DNA of 64,000 nt from Rubrivirga marina. Its GTDB lineage: Bacteria > Bacteroidota > Rhodothermia > Rhodothermales > Rubricoccaceae. The translations under genes were made by a program, and so were the position numbers. The stretch is taken from positions 4,224,992 to 4,288,991 of the forward strand of contig NZ_MQWD01000001.1 in assembly GCF_002283365.1 (NCBI RefSeq), given 5' to 3'. The first letter of the stretch is position 1, and every line of letters begins with the position of its first letter. Below, one piece after another: positions 2,134 to 57,198 of the stretch. The notes below the pieces were generated by a model that saw only the letters and a program-made list of their open reading frames with translations, was not told the DNA's origin and made no database searches.

Positions 2134-3546
2134 ATGTCCACGTTTTCCCGCCGCGACTGGCTGAGGGCCGGCGCCGCCGCCGTCGGCGGCGCCACGCTCG
2201 GCCGGATCTCGCGCGCCGCCGCGCTCCCCGCCACCTGGGACCCGCAGACCGCCGCCGACGCGCTCGCCGCCGACTCCGTCGCCGCAGCGAACGCGAGCCG
2301 CACCGCCGGCCGGCCGGCTCCCCCCGCCTCAGCGCCGAGGCGGGACCTCTCGACGCCGTACGTCGGCGACCGACCGCCACGCGTCCACACGCCAAACGGG
2401 TCGTCGATCACGGGCTCCCGGGGGCCCGACGGCGTGTGGGTCTACCACCTCACCGCCGAGGAGGTCGAGCACGAGTTCGCGCCCGGCCTCACCGCCACGT
2501 GCTGGGGCTACAACGGGCAGGTCCACGGGCCGACGTTCGAGGCCGTCGAGGGCGACCGCGTCCGGGTGTACGTGACCAACAGGCTGCCCGTCGCCACGAC
2601 GGTCCACTGGCACGGGTTCTTCCTGCCGTCCGGGATGGACGGCGTCGGCGGGCTGAGTCAGGCGCCGATCCCGCCCGGCGAGACCTACGTCTACGAGTTC
2701 CCGATCACGCAGAACGGGACGTTCATGTACCACTCGCACCACGACGAGATGACCCAGATCGCCCTCGGGCTGACGGGGATGTTCGTCGTCCACGAGCGGG
2801 GCGCGGACCGGTTCGACCGGGACGTCGCCATCATGCTCCACGAGTGGCGGATCGAGCCGGGCACGAGCCGCCCGGACCCGAACGAAATGAGCGACTTCAA
2901 CGTGCTCACGATGAACGCCCGGGCCTACCCGGGCACCGACCCGCTCGTCGTCGGCCACATGGACCGCGTGCGGATCCGGTTCGGCAACCTCTCGCCCATG
3001 GACCACCACCCGATCCACCTCCACGGGCACGTCTGGAAGATCGCGGCCACCGACGGCGGCCGGATCCCCGACGCCGCGCAGTGGCCCGAGACGACGGTCC
3101 TCGTCCCCGTCGGCAGCACCCGCACGGTCGAGTTCACCGCCGACGCGCTCGGCGACTGGGCCATGCACTGCCACATGACGCACCACGTCATGAACCAGAT
3201 GGGCCACGGCGTCCCCAACATGACCGGCGTCGACGCGGCCACGCTCGACCGCCAGGTCCAGCCCGTCGCGCCGGGCTACATGACGATGGGCGAGGCGGGG
3301 ATGGACGAGCACGGCGCGCACGTCGAGTCCGGCCACATGCCGGTCCCGGAGAACTCGATCCCGATGGTCGGCCAGATGGGACCGTTCGGATACATCACGA
3401 TGGGCGGGATGTACACCAACCTGAAGGTCCGCCCGAAGCCGGTCGACTACGATCGGGACCCCGGCTGGTACGACCACCCGCCCGGGACGGTCGCCGGCCC
3501 GGCCGACCCCGCCCAGCTCGCCCGTGACGGCATCGCTCTTACCTAG
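2134..3546 (+). CDS. Tat-exported multicopper oxidase (CopA/PcoA-like)
   Basis: The ATG at 2134 is chosen because it starts a twin-arginine signal (SRRDWLRAG, residues 5-13) right after the preceding stop. The 470-aa product has all the multicopper oxidase copper motifs: HWHG near residue 157, HSHHDE near 200, HPIHLHGH near 291 and HCHMTHHVMNQM near 345. These bind the type 1, 2 and 3 coppers. The C-terminal ~90 residues are Met-rich (YMTMGEAGMDEHG, GQMGPFGYITMGGM), typical of Cu(I)-oxidising CueO/PcoA enzymes. The probable activity is periplasmic Cu(I) oxidation. The linker after the signal peptide contains a perfect-armed copy of the dispersed palindrome (2323-2344), coding PPASAPRRDL. Confidence 0.93.
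   Translation: MSTFSRRDWLRAGAAAVGGATLGRISRAAALPATWDPQTAADALAADSVAAANASRTAGRPAPPASAPRRDLSTPYVGDRPPRVHTPNGSSITGSRGPDGVWVYHLTAEEVEHEFAPGLTATCWGYNGQVHGPTFEAVEGDRVRVYVTNRLPVATTVHWHGFFLPSGMDGVGGLSQAPIPPGETYVYEFPITQNGTFMYHSHHDEMTQIALGLTGMFVVHERGADRFDRDVAIMLHEWRIEPGTSRPDPNEMSDFNVLTMNARAYPGTDPLVVGHMDRVRIRFGNLSPMDHHPIHLHGHVWKIAATDGGRIPDAAQWPETTVLVPVGSTRTVEFTADALGDWAMHCHMTHHVMNQMGHGVPNMTGVDAATLDRQVQPVAPGYMTMGEAGMDEHGAHVESGHMPVPENSIPMVGQMGPFGYITMGGMYTNLKVRPKPVDYDRDPGWYDHPPGTVAGPADPAQLARDGIALT
2323..2344. repeat. Dispersed palindrome inside the multicopper oxidase gene
   Basis: Arms CCCGCCTC and GAGGCGGG are perfect complements around the centre AGCGCC. It lies in frame in the linker between the Tat signal and the mature oxidase and encodes PASAPRR. 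Confidence 0.85.
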
Positions 3547-15487: not shown

Positions 15488-15537
15488 GGGAACGGGGAAC
15501 GGGGAACGGGGAACGGGGAACGGGGAACGGGGAACGG
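15488..15537. repeat. 7-bp tandem array, unit GGGGAAC, about 7 copies
   Basis: AAC recurs exactly every 7 bp at 15491, 15498, 15505, 15512, 15519, 15526 and 15533. The array lies 34 bp upstream of the DUF4230 start codon and reads GTTCCCC on that gene's coding strand. It is part of a 471-bp non-coding gap (15455-15925) that otherwise holds MITE-like element 3 and one dispersed palindrome. Confidence 0.9.
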
Positions 15538-15593
15538 AAGGTGCCTGCTGGCGGACCGCGTCGCCAACCGGCCAGGCACTCGCTCTACTCCGT

Positions 15594-15735
15594 GTCATCC
15601 TGAGCGAGCGCAGCGAGGCGAAGGATCTCTGGCGCGGCCGCGTCTCAAGCCGACCGCCGAGAGCGATGACCAGCTGCAGGGCTCGCCAACGACCCTTCCA
15701 CTCCGCCGTTGCGCGGCTCCGCTCGGGATGACATG
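15594..15735. repeat. MITE-like element 3 with CATCCTGAGC-type ends
   Basis: The left end reads GTCATCCTGAGCGAGCG and GGCGAAGGATCTC; the right end reads CCCTTCCACTCC and GCTCCGCTCGGGATGACA, a degenerate inverted complement. Length ~140 bp, no coding content. Together with elements 1 and 2 it brackets the P450/DUF4230 cassette. Confidence 0.72.
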
Positions 15736-15800: not shown

Positions 15801-15824
15801 GCCCGCCTCGGTGTCGAGGCGGGC
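15801..15824. repeat. Dispersed palindrome downstream of EamA gene
   Basis: GCCCGCCTCG and CGAGGCGGGC flank the centre GTGT; 10-bp perfect arms. It lies about 100 bp beyond the stop of the minus-strand EamA gene. Confidence 0.85.
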
Positions 15825-24134: not shown

Positions 24135-25568
24135 ATGCGCCTCGTCCTCCTCGCGATCGCGTTCGCCGCCACCGGCTGCTCCGCCGCCGACGCCCTGAAC
24201 GTGGTCCTCGACCCCACAGCCCGCCCCGTCTCCTCCGCGTCAGACGATAGCCCATCGAACGGCGCTTCGCAGGCCGACGTCATCATCCTCGTCGCCCAGC
24301 GGGGCACGCCCGCGTACGCGTTCGCCGAGAGCCGCGAGAACGGCTCCACCATCTTCGCCGAGCGCAAGCTCTGGCGGGGCCTCCAAAAGGCCGCCGAGAT
24401 CCTCAATGAGGGCGGCAGCCGGACCGTCACGGTCGGCGTCGCCGGGGGCGAGTACGACGGCGAGTTCGGCGGTGGCATCCAACGCGTGCCGAGGATCGAC
24501 AACCCGGAGGGCACGCTCAAGCTGCTCGCCGGCTTCAACGACGACTTCTCGGGTCGCCAGCCGTTCGCCTTTGCGGTGAGCGTCCCGACGATCCGGGGCC
24601 GCGACGGCGCCATCTTCCAGATCGCCAGCCGGACGACGCTCAAGGAGCTCGTCATCAGCGGGCTGATCCTCGACGCCGCGCCGTCGAACAAGTACGACGC
24701 GCGGACGAACAGCCTCGTCAAGGGCGAGTCGCGGAACTACCCGCTCATGTCGTGGGCGCAGATGGAGGCCGAGCGCGTCGTCATCGCCGACAACATCTTC
24801 CTCAACGGCGCGAGCGGGACGGTCCGCCTCGGGATGACGCCGCCGCGGGGCGTCTCCGGCGAGGTCATCGTGCAGAACAACTTCTTCCTCAACAACCTCC
24901 TCGCGTTCGAGACGCAGACCTACGGCCGGCGGATCGGAGCGCCGTACGGGCGGCTCGTGGTCCGGAACAACTCGTTCCTAGCCAACTTCCCCTACAACCC
25001 GGACCCGACCTCGTCGAACGTCTCGGCCGTCGAGCTCCACACGTCGGAGAGCTTCCAGGAGACCGTCTTCGAGCGGAACCTGTTCGCCTACAACGCCGGC
25101 GGGGCCTTCCAGGTCGACTGGCCGCAGGACCGGCTGGCGGACTTCACGCTCCGGGAGAATCTGTTCTTCCTCAACGGCGTGCTGTGGGGCGAGGGCGCCG
25201 CCGAGGCCGCCGTGTTCGCCGGCAAGTTCGGGACCGGCGCCGTGTACCGCATCCTCGACCTCTACGACGTGGAGGACGATGTCGACGGCGAGGTGTCGGG
25301 CAACGTGGCCTTCGACCCGCAGGTCCCGATCGTGATGGCCCCGCTCCAGTCGGTCGACGGGGCGAGCGTCTCGGCCCAGCCGACGCTGATGAACGACGTC
25401 CGCCGGCTGTTCGGCGCGAACACGGACGGCGGGACGGTCGCCATCGCCAACTTCGCGCCCCAGATGATGTTCGACATCCGCGCGGTGCCGCTGCCGCAGA
25501 ATGAGGAAGCGAAGGCCTTCGGCGTCCAGCCAGCCATCATCTACGGCGCGACCGGGGCGCCGCAGTAG
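24135..25568 (+). CDS. Right-handed beta-helix lipoprotein
   Basis: The 477-aa protein has a lipoprotein signal (FAATGC, Cys ~16). From residue ~50 it shows short repeated strands with Asn ladders (GLILDAAPSNKYD, VVIADNIFLNGASG, VIVQNNFFLNNLLAFET, LVVRNNSFLANFPYN, TLRENLFFLNG) characteristic of parallel beta-helix/pectate-lyase-like solenoids. Such proteins may bind or process surface polysaccharide; no catalytic residues could be assigned. It is transcribed away from the minus-strand glycosyltransferase series. A dispersed palindrome follows 10 bp after the stop. Confidence 0.82.
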   Translation: MRLVLLAIAFAATGCSAADALNVVLDPTARPVSSASDDSPSNGASQADVIILVAQRGTPAYAFAESRENGSTIFAERKLWRGLQKAAEILNEGGSRTVTVGVAGGEYDGEFGGGIQRVPRIDNPEGTLKLLAGFNDDFSGRQPFAFAVSVPTIRGRDGAIFQIASRTTLKELVISGLILDAAPSNKYDARTNSLVKGESRNYPLMSWAQMEAERVVIADNIFLNGASGTVRLGMTPPRGVSGEVIVQNNFFLNNLLAFETQTYGRRIGAPYGRLVVRNNSFLANFPYNPDPTSSNVSAVELHTSESFQETVFERNLFAYNAGGAFQVDWPQDRLADFTLRENLFFLNGVLWGEGAAEAAVFAGKFGTGAVYRILDLYDVEDDVDGEVSGNVAFDPQVPIVMAPLQSVDGASVSAQPTLMNDVRRLFGANTDGGTVAIANFAPQMMFDIRAVPLPQNEEAKAFGVQPAIIYGATGAPQ

Positions 25569-25578
25569 CCCGGCTCTC

Positions 25579-25599
25579 CCCGCCTCGGCGCCGAGGTGG
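25579..25599. repeat. Dispersed palindrome after beta-helix gene
   Basis: CCCGCCTCGGCGCCGAGGTGG, one mismatch in the right arm. It lies 10 bp past the stop of the beta-helix lipoprotein gene; a hairpin terminator-like position. Confidence 0.85.
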
Positions 25600-25682: not shown

Positions 25683-26183
25683 ATGCGCCTCGCCGTTCTG
25701 CTCCTCGCCTTCGGCCTCGCCGGCTGCACGCACACCCGCCCCGCCGACCTCTCGTCGGCGGCGACGCGGGCGGAGGTCAACGCGCGGGCCGAACGCGGGC
25801 ACCCGGTCCTCCACCTGGACGGCCAGCGGGGCCGGCAGGTCCGCTCGCTCCACGTCGCGCCCGACGTGACGACGTGGATCGACAAGAAAACGGGCGAGGC
25901 CCGCTCGGCGCCGACCGCGGAGGTCCGGGCGGTCGCCTTCCGGCGCGACGGGCACGGTGCCCTCCAAGGGATCGGCATCGGCGTCGCTGTGGTGGGCCTC
26001 CTCGACACGTACCTCGGCGCCCTGGACGGAGAGGGGTTCCTCACGTTCAGCCCGCTCCAGGGCGCGGCCTTCGGCGCCGCGGGCGGGGCCGAGATCGGCG
26101 CCCTCGTCGGTGCCATCCGCTCGGACCGGGTCGTGTACGAGACCGCTCGGTGCCGCGGGCCGGTCGCCCGCTGCTCGGAGTAG
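25683..26183 (+). CDS. Lipoprotein of unknown function
   Basis: The 166-aa protein has a lipobox (GLAGC, Cys15). The middle (RQVRSLHVAPDVTTWIDKKT) is beta-rich, and residues ~98-145 contain two glycine-rich hydrophobic segments (GIGIGVAVVGLLDTYLG and AAFGAAGGAEIGALVGAI) like glycine-zipper membrane hairpins. No precise family recognised. The stop is followed after 1 bp by a dispersed palindrome and then the convergent M1 peptidase gene. Confidence 0.65.
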   Translation: MRLAVLLLAFGLAGCTHTRPADLSSAATRAEVNARAERGHPVLHLDGQRGRQVRSLHVAPDVTTWIDKKTGEARSAPTAEVRAVAFRRDGHGALQGIGIGVAVVGLLDTYLGALDGEGFLTFSPLQGAAFGAAGGAEIGALVGAIRSDRVVYETARCRGPVARCSE

Positions 26184-26184
26184 C

Positions 26185-26206
26185 CCCGCCTTGGCGCCGA
26201 GGCGGG
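26185..26206. repeat. Dispersed palindrome between convergent genes
   Basis: CCCGCCTTGGCGCC then GAGGCGGG, one arm mismatch. It occupies almost the whole 24-bp space between a plus-strand stop (26183) and the minus-strand stop of the M1 peptidase (26208), the position of a bidirectional terminator. Confidence 0.85.
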
Positions 26207-29092: not shown

Positions 29093-29114
29093 TCCGCCTC
29101 GGCGCCGAGGCGGA
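29093..29114. repeat. Dispersed palindrome between receiver protein and fabI genes
   Basis: TCCGCCTCGGCGCC followed by GAGGCGGA; perfect 22-bp palindrome. It is 47 bp past the receiver gene's stop (minus strand) and before the fabI promoter element. Confidence 0.85.
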
Positions 29115-29160: not shown

Positions 29161-29535
29161 CTACGCCAGGAGCTTCTCGACGGCCGCCAGCATGTCGGCC
29201 TTCATGACGGGCTTCGAGAGGTAGGCGTCGAAGCCGGCCTCGAGGCAGCGGCGGCGGTCCTCCGGCGAGGCGTGGGCCGTGAGCGCGAGCGTCGGGAGTG
29301 TGCTCAGGCGCGGGTCGGCGCGGATCTGCTGGACGAGCTCGATCCCGGTCATCCCGCCCTGGTAGTTCAAGTCGAGGAGGGCCACGTCGACGCCGCCGCC
29401 GGCCAGCCGCCGGGCGGCCTCCTCGGCGGACTGGGCCGTCACGACGTCGTACCCCTTGCGGAGGTAGATCTCGAACAGCTGGCAGTTTTCGGGGTAGTCG
29501 TCGGCGATGAGGATGGTCGGTCGGGGGGCGGACAT
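29161..29535 (-). CDS. Single-domain response regulator (receiver only)
   Basis: The 124-aa protein is one receiver domain: acidic pair Asp12-Asp13 (ILIADDYPENC), phosphoacceptor Asp55 (ALLDLNYQGGMTG), Thr86 (LALTAHAS) and Lys108 (YLSKPV). There is no output domain. Such proteins work in phosphorelays or bind partner proteins. No kinase gene is adjacent. Confidence 0.92.
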   Translation of the reverse strand: MSAPRPTILIADDYPENCQLFEIYLRKGYDVVTAQSAEEAARRLAGGGVDVALLDLNYQGGMTGIELVQQIRADPRLSTLPTLALTAHASPEDRRRCLEAGFDAYLSKPVMKADMLAAVEKLLA

Positions 29536-37812: not shown

Positions 37813-37836
37813 CCTCGCCTCGGCGCCGAGGCGAGG
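37813..37836. repeat. Dispersed palindrome between moaA and moaC
   Basis: A perfect 24-bp palindrome, CCTCGCCTCGGC and its complement. It lies 10 bp past the moaA stop and upstream of the moaC promoter element, fitting a terminator position. Confidence 0.88.
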
Positions 37837-37846
37837 CCACCCGGCG

Positions 37847-38845
37847 TCAGCCGCCGATGGTGATCATCGGCCGGTTCTCCGTGGCGGCGAGGACGTCCAT
37901 GCCGGCATGAGCGCGGGCCTTGCCGGCCAGCGACCGGCGAACGAGCTCGAGGAGGTCGGCGTCCGTCGCGCCGCCCCGCATCGCGTCGCGGAGGCTGACC
38001 TCACGGGCCCCGAACAGGCACACCTTCAGCGCCCCATCGGCCGTGACGCGGAGGCGGTTGCAGCCGGCGCAGAACGGAACCGTCATGCTCGCCACGAACC
38101 CGACGCGGCCGCGCCAGCCGGGGCGCGAGAACGTCCGAGCCGTGGAGTGCGGCCCGTCATCGAGCGCGTCGAGCGGACCGTGGACGTCCTCGATGCGCGC
38201 CCGGGTCTCGGCGTAGGGCACCAGCTCCGACCGGTCCCAGCCGTTCCCGTCGAACGGCATGACCTCGATAAAGCGGACCTCGATCGGCTCCCGCGCCGCC
38301 CAGTCCGCGAAGTCCACCGCCTCGTCCTCGTTGACGCCGCGGAGGGCGACGACGTTGACCTTCAGCGAGCGGGGGCCGTCGATCCGATAGCCGAGGCGGA
38401 GCGCGGCGTCGAGCGCCGAGAGCACGCGATCGAGGCCCGGCCGGCGCGTGACGGCCTCGAACCGGTCGGCGCGGAGGGTGTCGAGCGAGAGCGTGAGGTC
38501 GGTGAGGCCCGCGGCACGGAGGTCCGGGAGGCGGTCTTCGAGGAGCAGACCGTTCGTCGTGAGCGCGAGCGAGCGGAGGCCGAGGCGCCCAAGCCGCTCC
38601 GCCACCTCGACGGCGTCCTTCCGCACGAGCGGCTCGCCGCCGGTCAACCGGATCTTGTCTACTCCCACCTCGGCGAGCACGCGGGCGAGGCGCTCGATCT
38701 CGTCGGTCGAGAGCATCTGCCGGGTCGGCGTGAGCGGGACGCCCTCGGCCGGCATGCAGTAGACGCAGCGGAGGTTGCACCGCTCCGTGAGCCCGAGCCG
38801 GAGCGTCGTGTGCCGGCGGCCGAACGAGTCGGTGAGGGGGCTCAT
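37847..38845 (-). CDS. moaA: GTP 3',8-cyclase MoaA
   Basis: The 332-aa radical-SAM protein has the N-terminal cluster ERCNLRCVYC (Cys23, Cys27, Cys30), KIRLTGGEPLVRKD, and the C-terminal cluster FCAGCNRLRVTADGALKVCL, ending in the conserved GG (TIGG). It converts GTP to the cyclic precursor of molybdopterin together with MoaC. The start overlaps the stop of a 39-aa membrane peptide gene (ATGA at 38842-38845). Confidence 0.97.
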   Translation of the reverse strand: MSPLTDSFGRRHTTLRLGLTERCNLRCVYCMPAEGVPLTPTRQMLSTDEIERLARVLAEVGVDKIRLTGGEPLVRKDAVEVAERLGRLGLRSLALTTNGLLLEDRLPDLRAAGLTDLTLSLDTLRADRFEAVTRRPGLDRVLSALDAALRLGYRIDGPRSLKVNVVALRGVNEDEAVDFADWAAREPIEVRFIEVMPFDGNGWDRSELVPYAETRARIEDVHGPLDALDDGPHSTARTFSRPGWRGRVGFVASMTVPFCAGCNRLRVTADGALKVCLFGAREVSLRDAMRGGATDADLLELVRRSLAGKARAHAGMDVLAATENRPMITIGG

Positions 38846-49443: not shown

Positions 49444-50654
49444 CCGGCCAGGTCGGTCAAGACGCGCGCCTTCAAGAGACACTCGGCGTACTCCGCATCG
49501 AGGTCGCTGTCCCACACGATCCCGCTGCCCACGTCGTAGCGCCCGACGCCGTCGGCGACGACGGCCGTGCGGATGGCGACGTTGAACGCGGCCTCGCTCA
49601 GCCCCGAGGCCCCGCCCGGCGCGGCGTAGCCGATGGCCCCGCAGTAGACCCCACGCGGGCCGACCTCCAGGTCGCGGATGATCCGCATGGCGCGGAGCTT
49701 CGGGGCGCCCGTGATCGACCCGCACGGGAAGAGCGCGCGGAGCACGTCGCCGAGGCCGACGTCGGGCCGGAGTGCTGCCGTGACGGTCGACGTCATCTGC
49801 GTGACCGTCTCGTAGCGCTCGGCCTCGAAGAGCGCCGGCACGCGGACGCTACCCGGCGCGGAGACCCGCGCGAGATCGTTCCGGAGGAGGTCCACGATCA
49901 TCAGGTTCTCGGCGCGGTCCTTCGGGCTGGCCCGGAGCGCCTCGGCGAGCGCGTCGTCGTGGCTGGGCGAGCCGCCCCGAGGCGCCGTCCCCTTCATCGG
50001 CCGCGCCCGGATCGTCCGCCCGCCCCCCTCGGGGTCGACCCGGAAGAACAGCTCCGGTGAGACCGACGCGACGGCAGCTCCCCCCGCCTCGGCCTCGAGG
50101 CGGACGAAGGCGCCGTAGGCGACCGACTGGCGGCGACGGAGCGCGCCGAAGAGCGCCAGCGGGTCGCCGTCGAGCCCGAAGCGGAACGGCGCCGTCAGGT
50201 TGATCTGGTACACGTCGCCGGCCCGGATGTGAGCGCGGATGGCCGCCACACGTCCGCCGTACGCCGCCTCGTCGAGCGCGAACGTCGGGCGCTCGACCCG
50301 GACGGGTCCGGCCTCCGCCAGCGCGGCGTCGACGGCCTCAGCCGGGACGTCCGTCGGCGCGTCGTACACGCCGAACCACGCGAGCGGGACGGCCGGATCC
50401 AGCGGCGGGTCGCGGACGTGGTCGGGCTCGATCGCGTAGCCCGCCTCGTAGCTCAGGACCCCGGCGACGTGATGGCCCTCGCCGAGGGCACGATCGAGGG
50501 CGTCGAGGAGCGGGCCGACCTCGTCGAGCGTGCGCGCCGCCAGCGCGCAGCGCGGCGACGTGAACAGCCATGCGCCCCGCCGGCCGGTGTCGGCGTCGGG
50601 ACGCGGGGCGTCGAGGAGGACGGTGCCGGGGCGGCGGAGGGCGGCGGCGAGCAC
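49440..50654 (-). CDS. pabB: Aminodeoxychorismate synthase component I
   Basis: The 404-aa protein has the chorismate-binding core: GDVYQINLTAPF, SPELFFRVD, the PabB-type RARPMKGTAPRG (Lys in PxKGT distinguishes it from anthranilate synthase), DLLRNDLARV, TVTQMTSTV, FPCGSITGAPK and the end SGIVWDSDLDAEY. It aminates chorismate for p-aminobenzoate. GTG start at 50654. A palindrome copy (50084-50103) encodes RLEAEAGGA within it. It is translationally coupled to pabC. Confidence 0.93.
   Translation of the reverse strand: MLAAALRRPGTVLLDAPRPDADTGRRGAWLFTSPRCALAARTLDEVGPLLDALDRALGEGHHVAGVLSYEAGYAIEPDHVRDPPLDPAVPLAWFGVYDAPTDVPAEAVDAALAEAGPVRVERPTFALDEAAYGGRVAAIRAHIRAGDVYQINLTAPFRFGLDGDPLALFGALRRRQSVAYGAFVRLEAEAGGAAVASVSPELFFRVDPEGGGRTIRARPMKGTAPRGGSPSHDDALAEALRASPKDRAENLMIVDLLRNDLARVSAPGSVRVPALFEAERYETVTQMTSTVTAALRPDVGLGDVLRALFPCGSITGAPKLRAMRIIRDLEVGPRGVYCGAIGYAAPGGASGLSEAAFNVAIRTAVVADGVGRYDVGSGIVWDSDLDAEYAECLLKARVLTDLAG
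50084..50103. repeat. Dispersed palindrome inside pabB
   Basis: CCGCCTCG and CGAGGCGG around the centre GCCT; the segment encodes LEAEAGG between conserved beta strands of the chorismate-binding domain. Confidence 0.8.
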
Positions 50655-50710: not shown

Positions 50711-50730
50711 CCGCCTCGACGTCGAGGCGG
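50711..50730. repeat. Dispersed palindrome upstream of pabB
   Basis: A perfect 20-bp variant, CCGCCTCGACGTCGAGGCGG, 27 bp past the stop of the hypothetical gene (minus) and 56 bp before the pabB start. Confidence 0.87.
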
Positions 50731-50757: not shown

Positions 50758-51243
50758 CTATCGGTTCATCTGGGTGTCCGTGTCCTCCGGGCCCAGGTCG
50801 ACGCCCGTGAGGTTCGCGAGGGCCGGGCCGAGCGCCGTGCGGAACTCGTGGGCCCGCATCCGCTCCATCACGTCGCCGCGGCCGGCGCAGTAGCCGAGGA
50901 GCGCGTGCGGGCGCTGCATGTGCTGGAGCCCCTCCCGCACAACCCACGTGTGCCACGGCCGGAGGTCCCGGTCGAACGGCCCGATGAGCCGCGCGTAGAG
51001 CCGGTTCGCCGCGCGCTCGACGTCGTCCTCCGACGTCAGCTCGCCCATCTCGAGGAGCCGCTGGAGCCCGCCCCAGATGTAGCCCGCGAGGAAGTCGTGC
51101 TGCCCGTCCGTCAGCGCCAGGCCCGACTCGGGGCCGGTGTAGCCGAGGTCCGCCAGCGGCGTGCGGATGCAGGCCTCGACGTGGGCGACGGCCTCACGGA
51201 TCATGGCCTCGACGTAGGCGGGGGACTTGGAGGGACGAGACAT
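50758..51243 (-). CDS. Hypothetical helical protein
   Basis: The 161-aa protein has no signal or membrane segment and is predicted helical, with motifs EAMIREAVAHVEACIRTPLA, GQHDFLAGYIWGGLQRLLEM and RLIGPFDRDLRPWHTWVV. I do not recognise a family. The ATG at 51243 (MSRPSKSP) is chosen. The 236-bp space to the next gene upstream (51480) shows nothing clear. Confidence 0.65.
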   Translation of the reverse strand: MSRPSKSPAYVEAMIREAVAHVEACIRTPLADLGYTGPESGLALTDGQHDFLAGYIWGGLQRLLEMGELTSEDDVERAANRLYARLIGPFDRDLRPWHTWVVREGLQHMQRPHALLGYCAGRGDVMERMRAHEFRTALGPALANLTGVDLGPEDTDTQMNR

Positions 51244-53721: not shown

Positions 53722-56700
53722 CTACATGCTCCGCCGGTACTGCCCGCCGACCTCGAAGAGCGCGACCGTGATCTGCCCGAGCGACGCCACGCGGACCGTC
53801 TCCAGCAACGCCTCGAACGTGTTGCCACCCTCCCGGGCCACGCGCTGGAGCGCCGCCAGCGCCGCGGGCGCCTCCGCCTCGTGGCGCCGGTGGAACCGGT
53901 CGAGCCCGTTGAGCTGGCGCTGCTTTTCGGCCTCCGTCCCGCGCATGAGCTCCACCTCGGACTGGGACTCGGCCCCCTCGGCGGGCAGGAACGTGTTGAC
54001 TCCGATGACCGGGAGCTCGCCCGTGTGCTTCCGGTGCTCGTAGAGCATCGACTCCTCCTGGATCTTGCCGCGCTGGTACATCGACTCCATCGCGCCGAGG
54101 ACGCCGCCGCGGTCGGAGATCCGCTCGAACTCGAGGAGCACGGCCTCCTCCACGAGGTCCGTCAGCTCGTCGATGATGTAGGCGCCCTGGATCGGGTTCT
54201 CGTTCTGCGCCAGCCCCAGCTCGCGGTTGATGATGAGCTGGATCGCCATCGCCCGGCGGACGCTCTCCTCCGTCGGCGTCGTGATGGCCTCGTCGTAGGC
54301 GTTCGTGTGGAGGCTGTTGCAGTTGTCGTAGATGGCGAGGAGCGCCTGGAGCGTCGTCCGGATGTCGTTGAACTGGATCTCCTGCGCGTGCAGCGACCGG
54401 CCCGACGTCTGGACGTGGTACTTGAGCTTCTGGCTCCGGTCGCTCGCCCCGTACAGCTCGCGCATCGCCACCGACCAGATGCGCCGGGCCACGCGGCCGA
54501 TGACGGCGTACTCCGCGTCCATCCCGTTCGAGAAGAAGAACGAGAGGTTGGGGGCGAACGCGTCGACGTCCATCCCGCGCGCGCGGTAGGCCTCGACGTA
54601 GGTGAACCCGTTGGCCAGCGTGAACGCGAGCTGGGAGATCGGATTCGCGCCGGCCTCGGCGATGTGGTAGCCCGAGATCGAGACCGAGTAGAAGTTGCGG
54701 ACGCCGTGGTCGATGAACGCCTCCTGCACGTCGGCCATGCAGCGGAGCGAGAACTCGGTCGAGAAGATGCAGGTGTTCTGCGCCTGGTCCTCCTTGAGGA
54801 TGTCGGCCTGGACCGTCCCGCGGACGCTCGTCAGGGCCTTCGCGCGGATCTCCTGGTACTCGTCCTCCGACAGCAGGCCCCACGCGACGAGCTCGCGGCC
54901 CGACGTGCCGAGGAGGCCGAGTCCGGAGCCGTCGTGCCCTTCAGGGAGGCCCGCCTCGGCGTCGAGGTCGGCGGAGTCGGGGACGTAGGGGATGTAGCGC
55001 GGGCGGTCGTCGCCCAACTCCTCCGCGATCCGCGCCTCCGCCTCGTCCCAGCGGCCCTCGGCCTTCAGGACCTGCTCGACCTGCTGGTCGATGGCCGTGT
55101 TGAAGAACATGGCCAGGATCGTCGGCGCCGGGCCGTTGATCGTCATCGAGACGCTCGTCGTCGGCGCGCAGAGGTCGAAGCCGGAGTACAGCTTCTTCAT
55201 GTCGTCGAGCGTCGCGATCGAGACGCCCGACGTGCCCACCTTGCCGTAGACGTCGGGCCGCGGGTCGGGGTCGCGGCCGTACAGCGTGACGCTGTCGAAC
55301 GCCGTGCTGAGCCGCTTCGCCGGCATCCCGAGGCTGACGAGGTGGAACCGCTTGTTCGTCCGCTCCGGCGTGCCCTCGCCGGCGAACATCCGGGTCGGGT
55401 CCTCCCCCTCGCGCTTGAGCGGGAACACGCCGGCCGTGAAGGGGAAATGGCCGGGGAGGTTCTCGAGGAGCGCGTAGCGGAGCCGCTCGCCGGGGTCCTC
55501 CGTCCGCGGGAGCGCGACGCGGGGCACCTTCGTCCCGCTCAGCGTCTCGCGCGTGAGCGGCTGGCGGATGTCCCGACCGCGGACCCGGTAGACGAGCTCG
55601 TCGTCGGCGTACTGCTCGGCGACGGCGTCCCAGTTGTCGAGGATCGCCCTAGAGCGCGGGTCGAGGCGCCCCCACCAGTGAGCGGCCATCTCGTCGAGGC
55701 GACCCGCGATCTGCTCGCGGTCCTCCGGCGCCCAGCTCTCGACCTGCGCCTTCGCGCCGGCGGCCTGCCCCCACTTCCGCGCCGTGGCCATCTCCGCCTC
55801 GGCCCAGTCGCGGTAGGACCGGCACGTCTCGGCGATCTCGGCGAGGTAGCGCTGGCGACTGGGGGGGATCACCGCGAGCTCCGACGGGTCGAGCGCCGGG
55901 AGCGTCTCAGCGTCGAACAGCGACGACGCGCGGTCGAACCCGTGCTCGCGGAGCTGATCGAGCAGCGCGAGGTAGAGCCGCGACACGCCCGGGTCGTTGA
56001 ACTGGGCGGCCATCGTCGGGTAGACCGGCATCTCGTCGGGGGGCGTCGAGAACTGGCCGCGGTTGCGCTGGACCTGCTTCTTGACGTCGCGGAGGGCGTC
56101 CTCGGCCCCGCGCTTCTCGAACTTGTTGAGCGCCACGAGGTCGGCCACGTCGAGCATCCCGATCTTCTCGAGCTGCGTCGGCGCGCCGAAGTCGGACGTC
56201 ATGACGTAGAGCGAGACGTCGACGAGCTCGGCCACCTCGGTATCGCTCTGGCCGATCCCGGCCGTCTCCACGATCACGAGGTCGAACCCGGCCGCGCGGC
56301 ACACGTCGATGGCCTCGCGGAGCGCCCCGCTCGTCGCGCGGTGCGCCTGGCGCGTCGCGAACGACCGCATGTAGACGCGGTCGGCGTGCTCGCCGGTCAG
56401 GCTGTTCATCCGGATCCGGTCGCCGAGAAGCGCCCCGCCCGTCCGCCGCCGCGTCGGGTCGACCGACAGCACGGCCACGTGGACGTCGTCGAAGTCGTTC
56501 AAGACCCGGCGGACCAGTTCGTCGGTCAACGTCGACTTGCCGGCGCCGCCGGTCCCGGTGATGCCGAGGACGGGGGCGTGGGACTCGGGACGGGGGACCG
56601 GGGACTGGGGGGCGAGCGACGGAGCGCCGTCGCCGGAGGGCTGGGCCGCGCGCTGCTCGACGGCTGTGAGCCGCCGCGCGACGGTCCGCGATGCCACCGA

Positions 56701-57198
56701 GGCGGGCGCGGTCGCCACGACGGCCCCATCCGCCTCGGGCGCGTCGTCGGTGCCCCGGGCGGCCTCCAGCGGATCGACGTCGCACGCCCGGATCATCGAC
56801 TCGATCATGCCCTCGAGGCCCATCCGCATCCCGTCCTCGGGCGAGAAGATCTTGGCGACGCCGTAGGCCTCGAGCTCGGCGATCTCCTCGGGGACGATGA
56901 CGCCGCCGCCGCCGCCGAACACCTTGATGTGGCCGGCCCCGCGCTCGCGGAGCAGGTCGACCATGTATTTGAAGTACTCGACGTGGCCGCCCTGGTACGA
57001 CGACACGGCGATCCCCTGCGCGTCCTCCTCGATCGCCGTGCGGACGACGTCGTCGACACTCCGGTCGTGCCCGAGGTGGATGACCTCGGCGCCCTGGGCC
57101 TGGAGGATCCGCCGCATGATGTTGATCGCGGCGTCGTGACCGTCGAACAGGCTGGCGGCGGTGACGAAGCGGACGGGGTGCGTGGGCGTGTACGCCAT
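53722..57198 (-). CDS. icmF: Fused isobutyryl-CoA mutase IcmF
   Basis: The 1158-aa protein has three parts. Residues 1-140 are a B12-binding domain (FDGHDAAI, DxHxxG-type, then [12 protein letters not shown]). Residues ~210-500 are a MeaB-like G-protein chaperone ([48 protein letters not shown]). The remainder is the acyl-CoA mutase TIM barrel ([54 protein letters not shown]). This order defines IcmF, which interconverts isobutyryl- and butyryl-CoA. The B12-MeaB linker contains a 7-bp periodic tract, and a palindrome copy near 54949 codes DLDAEAGLP. Confidence 0.96.
54949..54970. repeat. Degenerate dispersed palindrome inside icmF
   Basis: CCCGCCTCGGCGTCGAGGTC matches the consensus with two changes in the right arm. 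It encodes DLDAEAGLP in a loop of the mutase barrel. Confidence 0.6.
56580..56607. repeat. 7-bp periodic tract GGGACNN inside icmF
   Basis: GGGAC at 56580, 56587, 56594 and 56601, exactly 7 bp apart. It codes the Pro/Ser linker ([10 protein letters not shown]) between the B12 and MeaB domains. Confidence 0.75.

Follow-up and report, generated by a model that had tools for sequence, protein, structure and literature searches.

A palindrome of Rubrivirga marina consists of two inverted copies of an abundant short word that differs between lineages of the Rubricoccaceae and may be a DNA-uptake signal

Rickettsia palindromic elements, which are about 100-150 bp long, are inserted in genes and read in frame. 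The palindromes of the REP/RAYT type are shorter (20-40 bp), lie in spacers and reach many copies (PMC3733652), while the HIP words of cyanobacteria are palindromes tied to methyltransferases, and HIP1 is replaced by alternate HIPs in some cyanobacteria (PMC4390886). Uptake words with dialects are known, so far as open-access papers show, only from Neisseriaceae and Pasteurellaceae. The DUS of Neisseriaceae is a non-palindromic word of about 10 bp with thousands of copies, which forms dyad pairs and falls into lineage dialects, including one with an inserted base (wadDUS); the top density is that of kingDUS, with 5918 copies in 2.4 Mb (PMC3630211). In some Neisseriaceae, up to 37% of terminators contain such words (PMC13020248). 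The USS of Pasteurellaceae is gained mainly by point mutation and has no orientation bias (PMC1939737).

The palindrome considered here recurs in the window, the whole stretch of 64,000 nucleotides analysed from the genome of Rubrivirga marina (Rubricoccaceae, Rhodothermales). Its arm pattern, CCGCCTCGNNNNCGAGGCGG, is found there in 6 exact copies and in 4 with one mismatch, against 0 and 0.2-0.3 in Markov shuffles, and an Rfam search of the window gave no match. The genome of this species (G000) was compared with three congeners (G001-G003, with G002 the nearest relative) and with two genomes of a sister genus (G004 and G007). The copies in the window are the following.

2323-2344, inverted pair, one base off the genome consensus, within the multicopper oxidase gene 2134-3546 (+)
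15802-15823, inverted pair, intergenic, between 15454 and 15926; hairpin of -32.7 kcal/mol, z -3.6
25580-25599, inverted pair with one mismatch, 11 bp 3' of the stop of gene 24135-25568 (+)
26185-26206, inverted pair with one mismatch, between convergent genes, 2 bp 3' of the stop of 25683-26183 (+)
29094-29113, inverted pair behind gene 29161-29535 (-); kept in G002 despite differing flanks
37815-37834, degenerate inverted pair with two mismatches, intergenic, 12 bp 3' of the stop of 37847-38845 (-)
47098-47119, inverted pair between convergent genes, 6 bp 3' of the stop of 46256-47092 (+); conserved in G002
48758-48795, full-length palindrome of about 38 bp behind an aminotransferase class IV (pabC-type) gene; hairpin of -35.7 kcal/mol
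50084-50103, inverted pair with perfect arms, inside the chorismate-binding (pabB-type) gene 49440-50654 (-)
50711-50730, intergenic inverted pair located behind 50758-51204 (-) and kept in G002
54951-54970, degenerate inverted pair with two mismatches, in the long open reading frame 53722-57198 (-), putative icmF; 27 bp absent in G003

Folded as single strands, the window copies give stable hairpins of -25 to -36 kcal/mol, with z-scores of -0.8 to -3.6. An earlier, sequence-only reading of this DNA had drawn attention to copies inside genes, and these are indeed present: the arms in the pabB-type gene are perfect, a degenerate copy stands at 54949-54970 (54951-54970, two mismatches) in the minus-strand frame of the putative icmF, and the half-copies that it described in genes are real and numerous, the word CCGCCTCGG being found 62 times in the window, genes and spacers together. 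The multicopper oxidase copy, CCCGCCTC-AGCGCC-GAGGCGGG, had been called perfect-armed; this is true over 8 bp, but the copy as a whole has one mismatch to the genome consensus.

Over the whole genome (4.98 Mb in 11 contigs) CCGCCTCGNNNNCGAGGCGG has 347 exact copies, against 0 for the reversed control. A scan for the exact 22-mer in one genome each for 84,980 species, which possibly left out the genome studied here, hit 13 stretches, of which a single Rubrivirga MAG accounts for 9. For gene context, 1.6 of the 5.0 Mb of G000 was sampled, together with 0.4 Mb from G001 and 0.2 Mb from each of G003 and G004; the genes were called by a home-made codon-usage caller, which renders 88-89% of the G000 sample coding. 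Although 89% of the DNA is coding, 114 of the 133 exact palindromes in the 1.6 Mb (86%) are intergenic, mostly just behind stop codons, and 19 overlap coding sequence; genes are not their main setting, and the earlier framing as insertions in coding sequence misleads. For intergenic copies with at most one mismatch, the median distance is 10 bp to the neighbouring stop codon and 80 bp to starts; many of them lie between convergent genes and few between divergent ones. When copies are aligned in the direction of transcription, the element reaches about 38 bp (CGACTCCGCCCGCCTCGGCGCCGAGGCGGGCGGAGTCG); its outer arms are degenerate, and the aligned copies show no constant boundaries outside the arms. 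The oriented profile of the G000 copies holds no T-rich tract 3' of the hairpin, and an intrinsic terminator with a U-tract was rejected, since the hairpin behind the stop is present but the U-tract is lacking. As judged from their sequence, the pairs behind stop codons would fold into an RNA hairpin that probably marks the 3' end of the transcript.

Inverted-repeat and k-mer counts resolve the palindrome into two inverted copies of CCGCCTCGG, a word of 9-10 bp that is abundant and also found singly; the pairs show a preferred spacing, and single words outnumber them. The density of CCGCCTCGG in coding sequence is 0.67 per kb in G000 and 0.61 in G001, against 0.09 in G003 and 0.12 in G004, and in spacers 2.88 and 1.71 against 0.05 and 0.07. 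Single words inside genes, at 5-7 times the density seen in relatives of similar GC, occur in both orientations and in several frames. Neither CCGCCTCGG nor the G004 word GCCTCTGGCG is self-complementary, each being palindromic only as a pair. Forward and reverse counts are about equal in every part of the contig, a lack of strand polarity that rules out an oriented motif of the Chi/KOPS type. Stretches free of the word extend up to 12.7 kb.

Whole-genome counts on both strands of the species' own genome and its relatives (60 genomes) show that the word changes between lineages. CCCGCCTCGG is found 1778 times in G000, 1369 times in G001 and 1030 times in G002 (a fragmented assembly, 81% complete), against 104 in G003, 114 in G004 and 178 in G007, with at most 158 elsewhere. 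CCGCCAGCGG has 1990 copies in G003 and 1680 in G007, 217-444 in G000-G002 and G004, and at most about 120 in the others. GCCTCTGGCG reaches 14,176 copies in G004 (4.4 Mb, about 3.2 per kb) and at most 99 in all other genomes searched, including 99 in its congener G007. Both of these words are denser in spacers, the G003 word CCGCCAGC(GG), as an 8-mer, standing at 1.98 per kb in genes and 4.52 in spacers, and GCCTCTGGCG in G004 at 2.78 and 9.77. The profile of the G004 word is that of a sharp 10-mer with unconserved flanks. Among its one-mismatch forms, 16 of 30 variants are more than twofold over-represented; the effect is weak in G000 (4 of 27). GCCTC-GGCG and GCCTCTGGCG resemble each other and are one base apart. 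At least three lineage-specific words are therefore present in the family Rubricoccaceae, CCGCCTCGG in G000-G002, CCGCCAGCGG in G003 and G007 and GCCTCTGGCG in G004, among six genomes of two genera with few per genus. As judged from these six genomes, CCGCCAGCGG may be ancestral, because it is common to G003 and G007, which belong to different genera, and the other two words derived; two dialect changes have probably taken place among close relatives.

At gene ends the sites are kept and the words exchanged. At three sites of the window (29094, 48767 and 50711) G000 and G002 bear a pair of the CCGCCTCGG type and G003 bears its own inverted pair at the orthologous gene end: GCTGGCGG...CCGCCAGC at the place of 29094-29113, CCGCTGGCG...CGCCAGCGG at that of 48758-48795 and CCGCCAGCGACTGGCGG at that of 50711-50730. 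An inverted pair in the own dialect lies within -12 to +70 of the stop in 16% of genes in G000, 6% in G001, 4% in G003 and 39% in G004, and one in a foreign dialect in 0-0.3%. In 70 orthologue pairs of G000 and G003, the own word stands behind the gene in both genomes 11 times, in neither 40 times and in one of the two 9 and 10 times (Fisher p 0.005); for G001 the same association is borderline (p 0.05), and for G004 (n 26) it does not reach significance. In the alignment of G000 with G002, 13 of 16 intergenic words are the same in both genomes, while coding 9-mers are identical in 40% of cases. Because the word doubles as a hairpin at gene ends, a change of dialect would rewrite many transcript ends.

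How do the copies inside genes arise? It had been proposed that they are in-frame insertions tolerated by the proteins. This holds for the pabB-type gene, which in G000 and G002 is exactly 12 bp longer, in frame, than in G001 and G003, and it may hold for the 17-27% of G004 coding words that overlap alignment gaps, well over the background gap rate; as a general account it is not supported, and most coding copies are gap-free in alignments of orthologous proteins (94-100% in G000, 73-83% in G004). The multicopper oxidase copy is no clean insertion, since the G001 orthologue has APPTSAP at the same place, sharing the APPxSAP residues without the palindrome, which is the very outcome that the earlier reading had named as refuting it. 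In the DNA alignment of the window with G003, gaps overlap 8 of 26 single coding words, against 7-10% of controls, and in protein alignments of 34 words over the 1.6 Mb of G000 none overlaps a gap. Residue conservation at the words is below average, at 0.42 against 0.65 for G004 compared with G000 and 0.67 against 0.78 for G000 compared with G001. The mostly gap-free alignment and the low conservation point to gain mainly by substitution at weakly constrained sites, with a minority of coding words coming with indels above background. In the sampled genes of G004, 44% of TCT, 34% of AGG and 30% of CCT codons lie inside the word, a concentration which argues for pressure on the DNA rather than on the protein. 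Coding sequence holds 481 of the 744 words of the G004 sample, 254 in sense and 227 in antisense, and this near equality makes it less likely that the coding copies act in mRNA.

On balance we incline to the view that the word is a bias signal for DNA uptake whose dialect switches with the specificity of a receptor. Each of the six sampled members of the family carries its own non-palindromic word of about 9-10 bp, in 1,000 to 14,000 copies on both strands; adjacent inverted copies form the palindrome, favoured just behind stop codons, and single copies lie in genes, mostly at little-constrained sites, where they probably arise mainly by substitution. The transformation machinery (type IV pilus, ComEC, DprA) would include a postulated surface receptor with a preference for DNA that bears the word, recombination of the kin DNA taken up would let the word accumulate (molecular drive), and altered receptor specificity would lead to an altered dialect. 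The likeness to DUS (PMC3630211) lies in the length and non-palindromic nature of the word, its thousands of copies, its inverted or dyad pairs and its lineage dialects, including dialects one inserted base apart (wadDUS there, GCCTC-GGCG and GCCTCTGGCG here); DUS is also found in terminators and the Rubricoccaceae pairs likewise stand behind genes, where they would act in termination. The differences are the phylum (Rhodothermales here), the GC-rich words, a likeness drawn from sequence whereas DUS has the ComP receptor, and the density in G004, about 3.2 per kb, which surpasses the highest DUS density in PMC3630211 (kingDUS). USS (PMC1939737, PMC1626085) is alike in being an abundant short word with spacer excess and no orientation bias, and it is gained mainly by point mutation, as the words here may be; its sequence is unrelated, and the Rubrivirga pairs differ in their strong placement behind stop codons. 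That self-recognition in uptake, with switching dialects, evolved independently in Rhodothermales, outside the two Proteobacteria families, and with a G004 word denser than any DUS dialect of PMC3630211, seems to us evenly poised.

ComEC and DprA genes are present in the word-bearing genomes and also in relatives without a detected word. A PilT match in G001 exceeds its curated cut-off, and PilB- and PilC-like homologues fall below theirs. Genes of this kind (ComEC, DprA, pilus ATPases) occur widely, and the machinery is not specific to word-bearing genomes. Searches for prepilin motifs found no protein with a convincing classical signature. Small paralogous proteins starting MGQQQLLLL adjoin pilB/pilC homologues (L043:3976-4970, L215:3571-5091); they have pilin-like hydrophobic N-termini, and the ones that were scanned match no Pfam or NCBIfam family convincingly. 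From their sequence and setting they are candidate pilus subunits or DNA receptors.

The main rival to the uptake reading is an iterated word like HIP1, created or kept by methyltransferase-linked repair or by a DNA-binding protein, with no role in uptake and with a dialect that follows the specificity of the enzyme. The density in G004 reaches or exceeds the range of 500-2500 per Mb given for HIPs, the words lie on both strands without polarity, and the replacement of words between related species is matched by the alternate HIPs (PMC4390886). We regard this as possible but doubtful: HIP1 and the alternate HIPs are palindromic and tied to methyltransferases, whereas the Rubricoccaceae words are palindromic only as pairs and form hairpin pairs at gene ends, and a methylation word leaves the enrichment of inverted pairs behind stop codons unexplained. 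Alternatively, the pairs may be a dedicated 3'-end hairpin, a terminator or an mRNA-stabilising structure of fixed sequence, bound by a factor that changed specificity between lineages, the single words being decayed or incipient copies. Since the pairs in G000 stand so markedly behind stop codons, a 3'-end function could be primary, and the intergenic excess, the enrichment between convergent and depletion between divergent genes, the stable folds and the substitution of another hairpin at orthologous ends in G003 all agree with it. It nevertheless seems unlikely, as neither the single words in genes, with 5-7 times the density of relatives, both orientations and several frames, nor the largely coding words of G004 are explained, and no T-rich tract follows the hairpin.

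A mobile short palindrome, of the REP/RAYT type or like that of Rickettsia, which inserts in spacers and sometimes in frame in genes, would suit the extended palindromic consensus of about 38 bp, the length gain in pabB and the G004 coding words at alignment gaps, and Y1_Tnp genes are found in G000, G002 and G003. We consider such an element quite improbable. No Y1_Tnp gene was found in G001 (97% complete) despite its 134 palindromes, the Y1_Tnp loci of the other three genomes hold just 1-2 arm copies each, coding words are mostly gap-free against orthologues, singles exceed pairs, and no constant boundaries exist past the arms. A REP/RAYT origin was rejected on the inconsistent presence of Y1_Tnp and the few arm copies at its loci; REP/RAYT palindromes (PMC3733652) resemble those of Rubrivirga in length, spacer location and copy number, but Rubrivirga has no consistent RAYT gene and its single words dominate, also in genes. 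Also rejected was an in-frame insertion element of the Rickettsia type: the Rubrivirga palindrome is likewise read in frame within proteins and seldom adds residues, with a clear gain of length in pabB, but it measures 20-38 bp, is predominantly intergenic and has coding words that probably arise mostly by substitution. That codon bias and amino-acid composition led to convergence, in a genome of 72-74% GC, is scarcely credible. Preferred codons suit the commonest frame of the coding pairs (RLGAEAG) and the word is common in coding frames, but in G003 and G004, whose GC is similar and whose codon usage is broadly alike, copies in genes are 5-7 times scarcer and spacers have almost no copies. 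Because CCGCCTCGG is scarce in these two genomes, codon bias is not the explanation; as sole cause it is refuted by the contrast between genomes, and it explains no more than some of the one-mismatch matches in genes.

If the uptake reading is true, a third unrelated group would permit tests of how uptake words start, spread and switch, among them whether a change of receptor precedes the change of word and how fast a genome is rewritten. In practice, the right word on DNA might ease the laboratory transformation of these bacteria. Searches of the open-access literature turned up no account of uptake words or of abundant words in Rubrivirga, Rubricoccus or Rhodothermales, and novelty is provisional, as most subscription papers fall outside that scope.

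Other features were observed alongside the palindrome. Two adjacent genes of the Y1_Tnp family (REP-associated transposases) lie at G000:C10:79065-79787, with no palindrome cluster nearby. A second interspersed repeat, around CGCTCAGGATGACA / TGTCATCCTGAGCG, has about 40 copies in the 1.6 Mb of G000, is AT-richer than the genome and is unrelated to the palindrome. In the window, the spacer 15488-15650 contains short stretches 86-98% identical to several places in G001, G003 and G007, possibly a dispersed repeat. Finally, the 51 bp at 44001-44051, just upstream of gene 43546-43998 (-), are 98% identical to G003:C3:152281-152331, an unusual conservation for a spacer.
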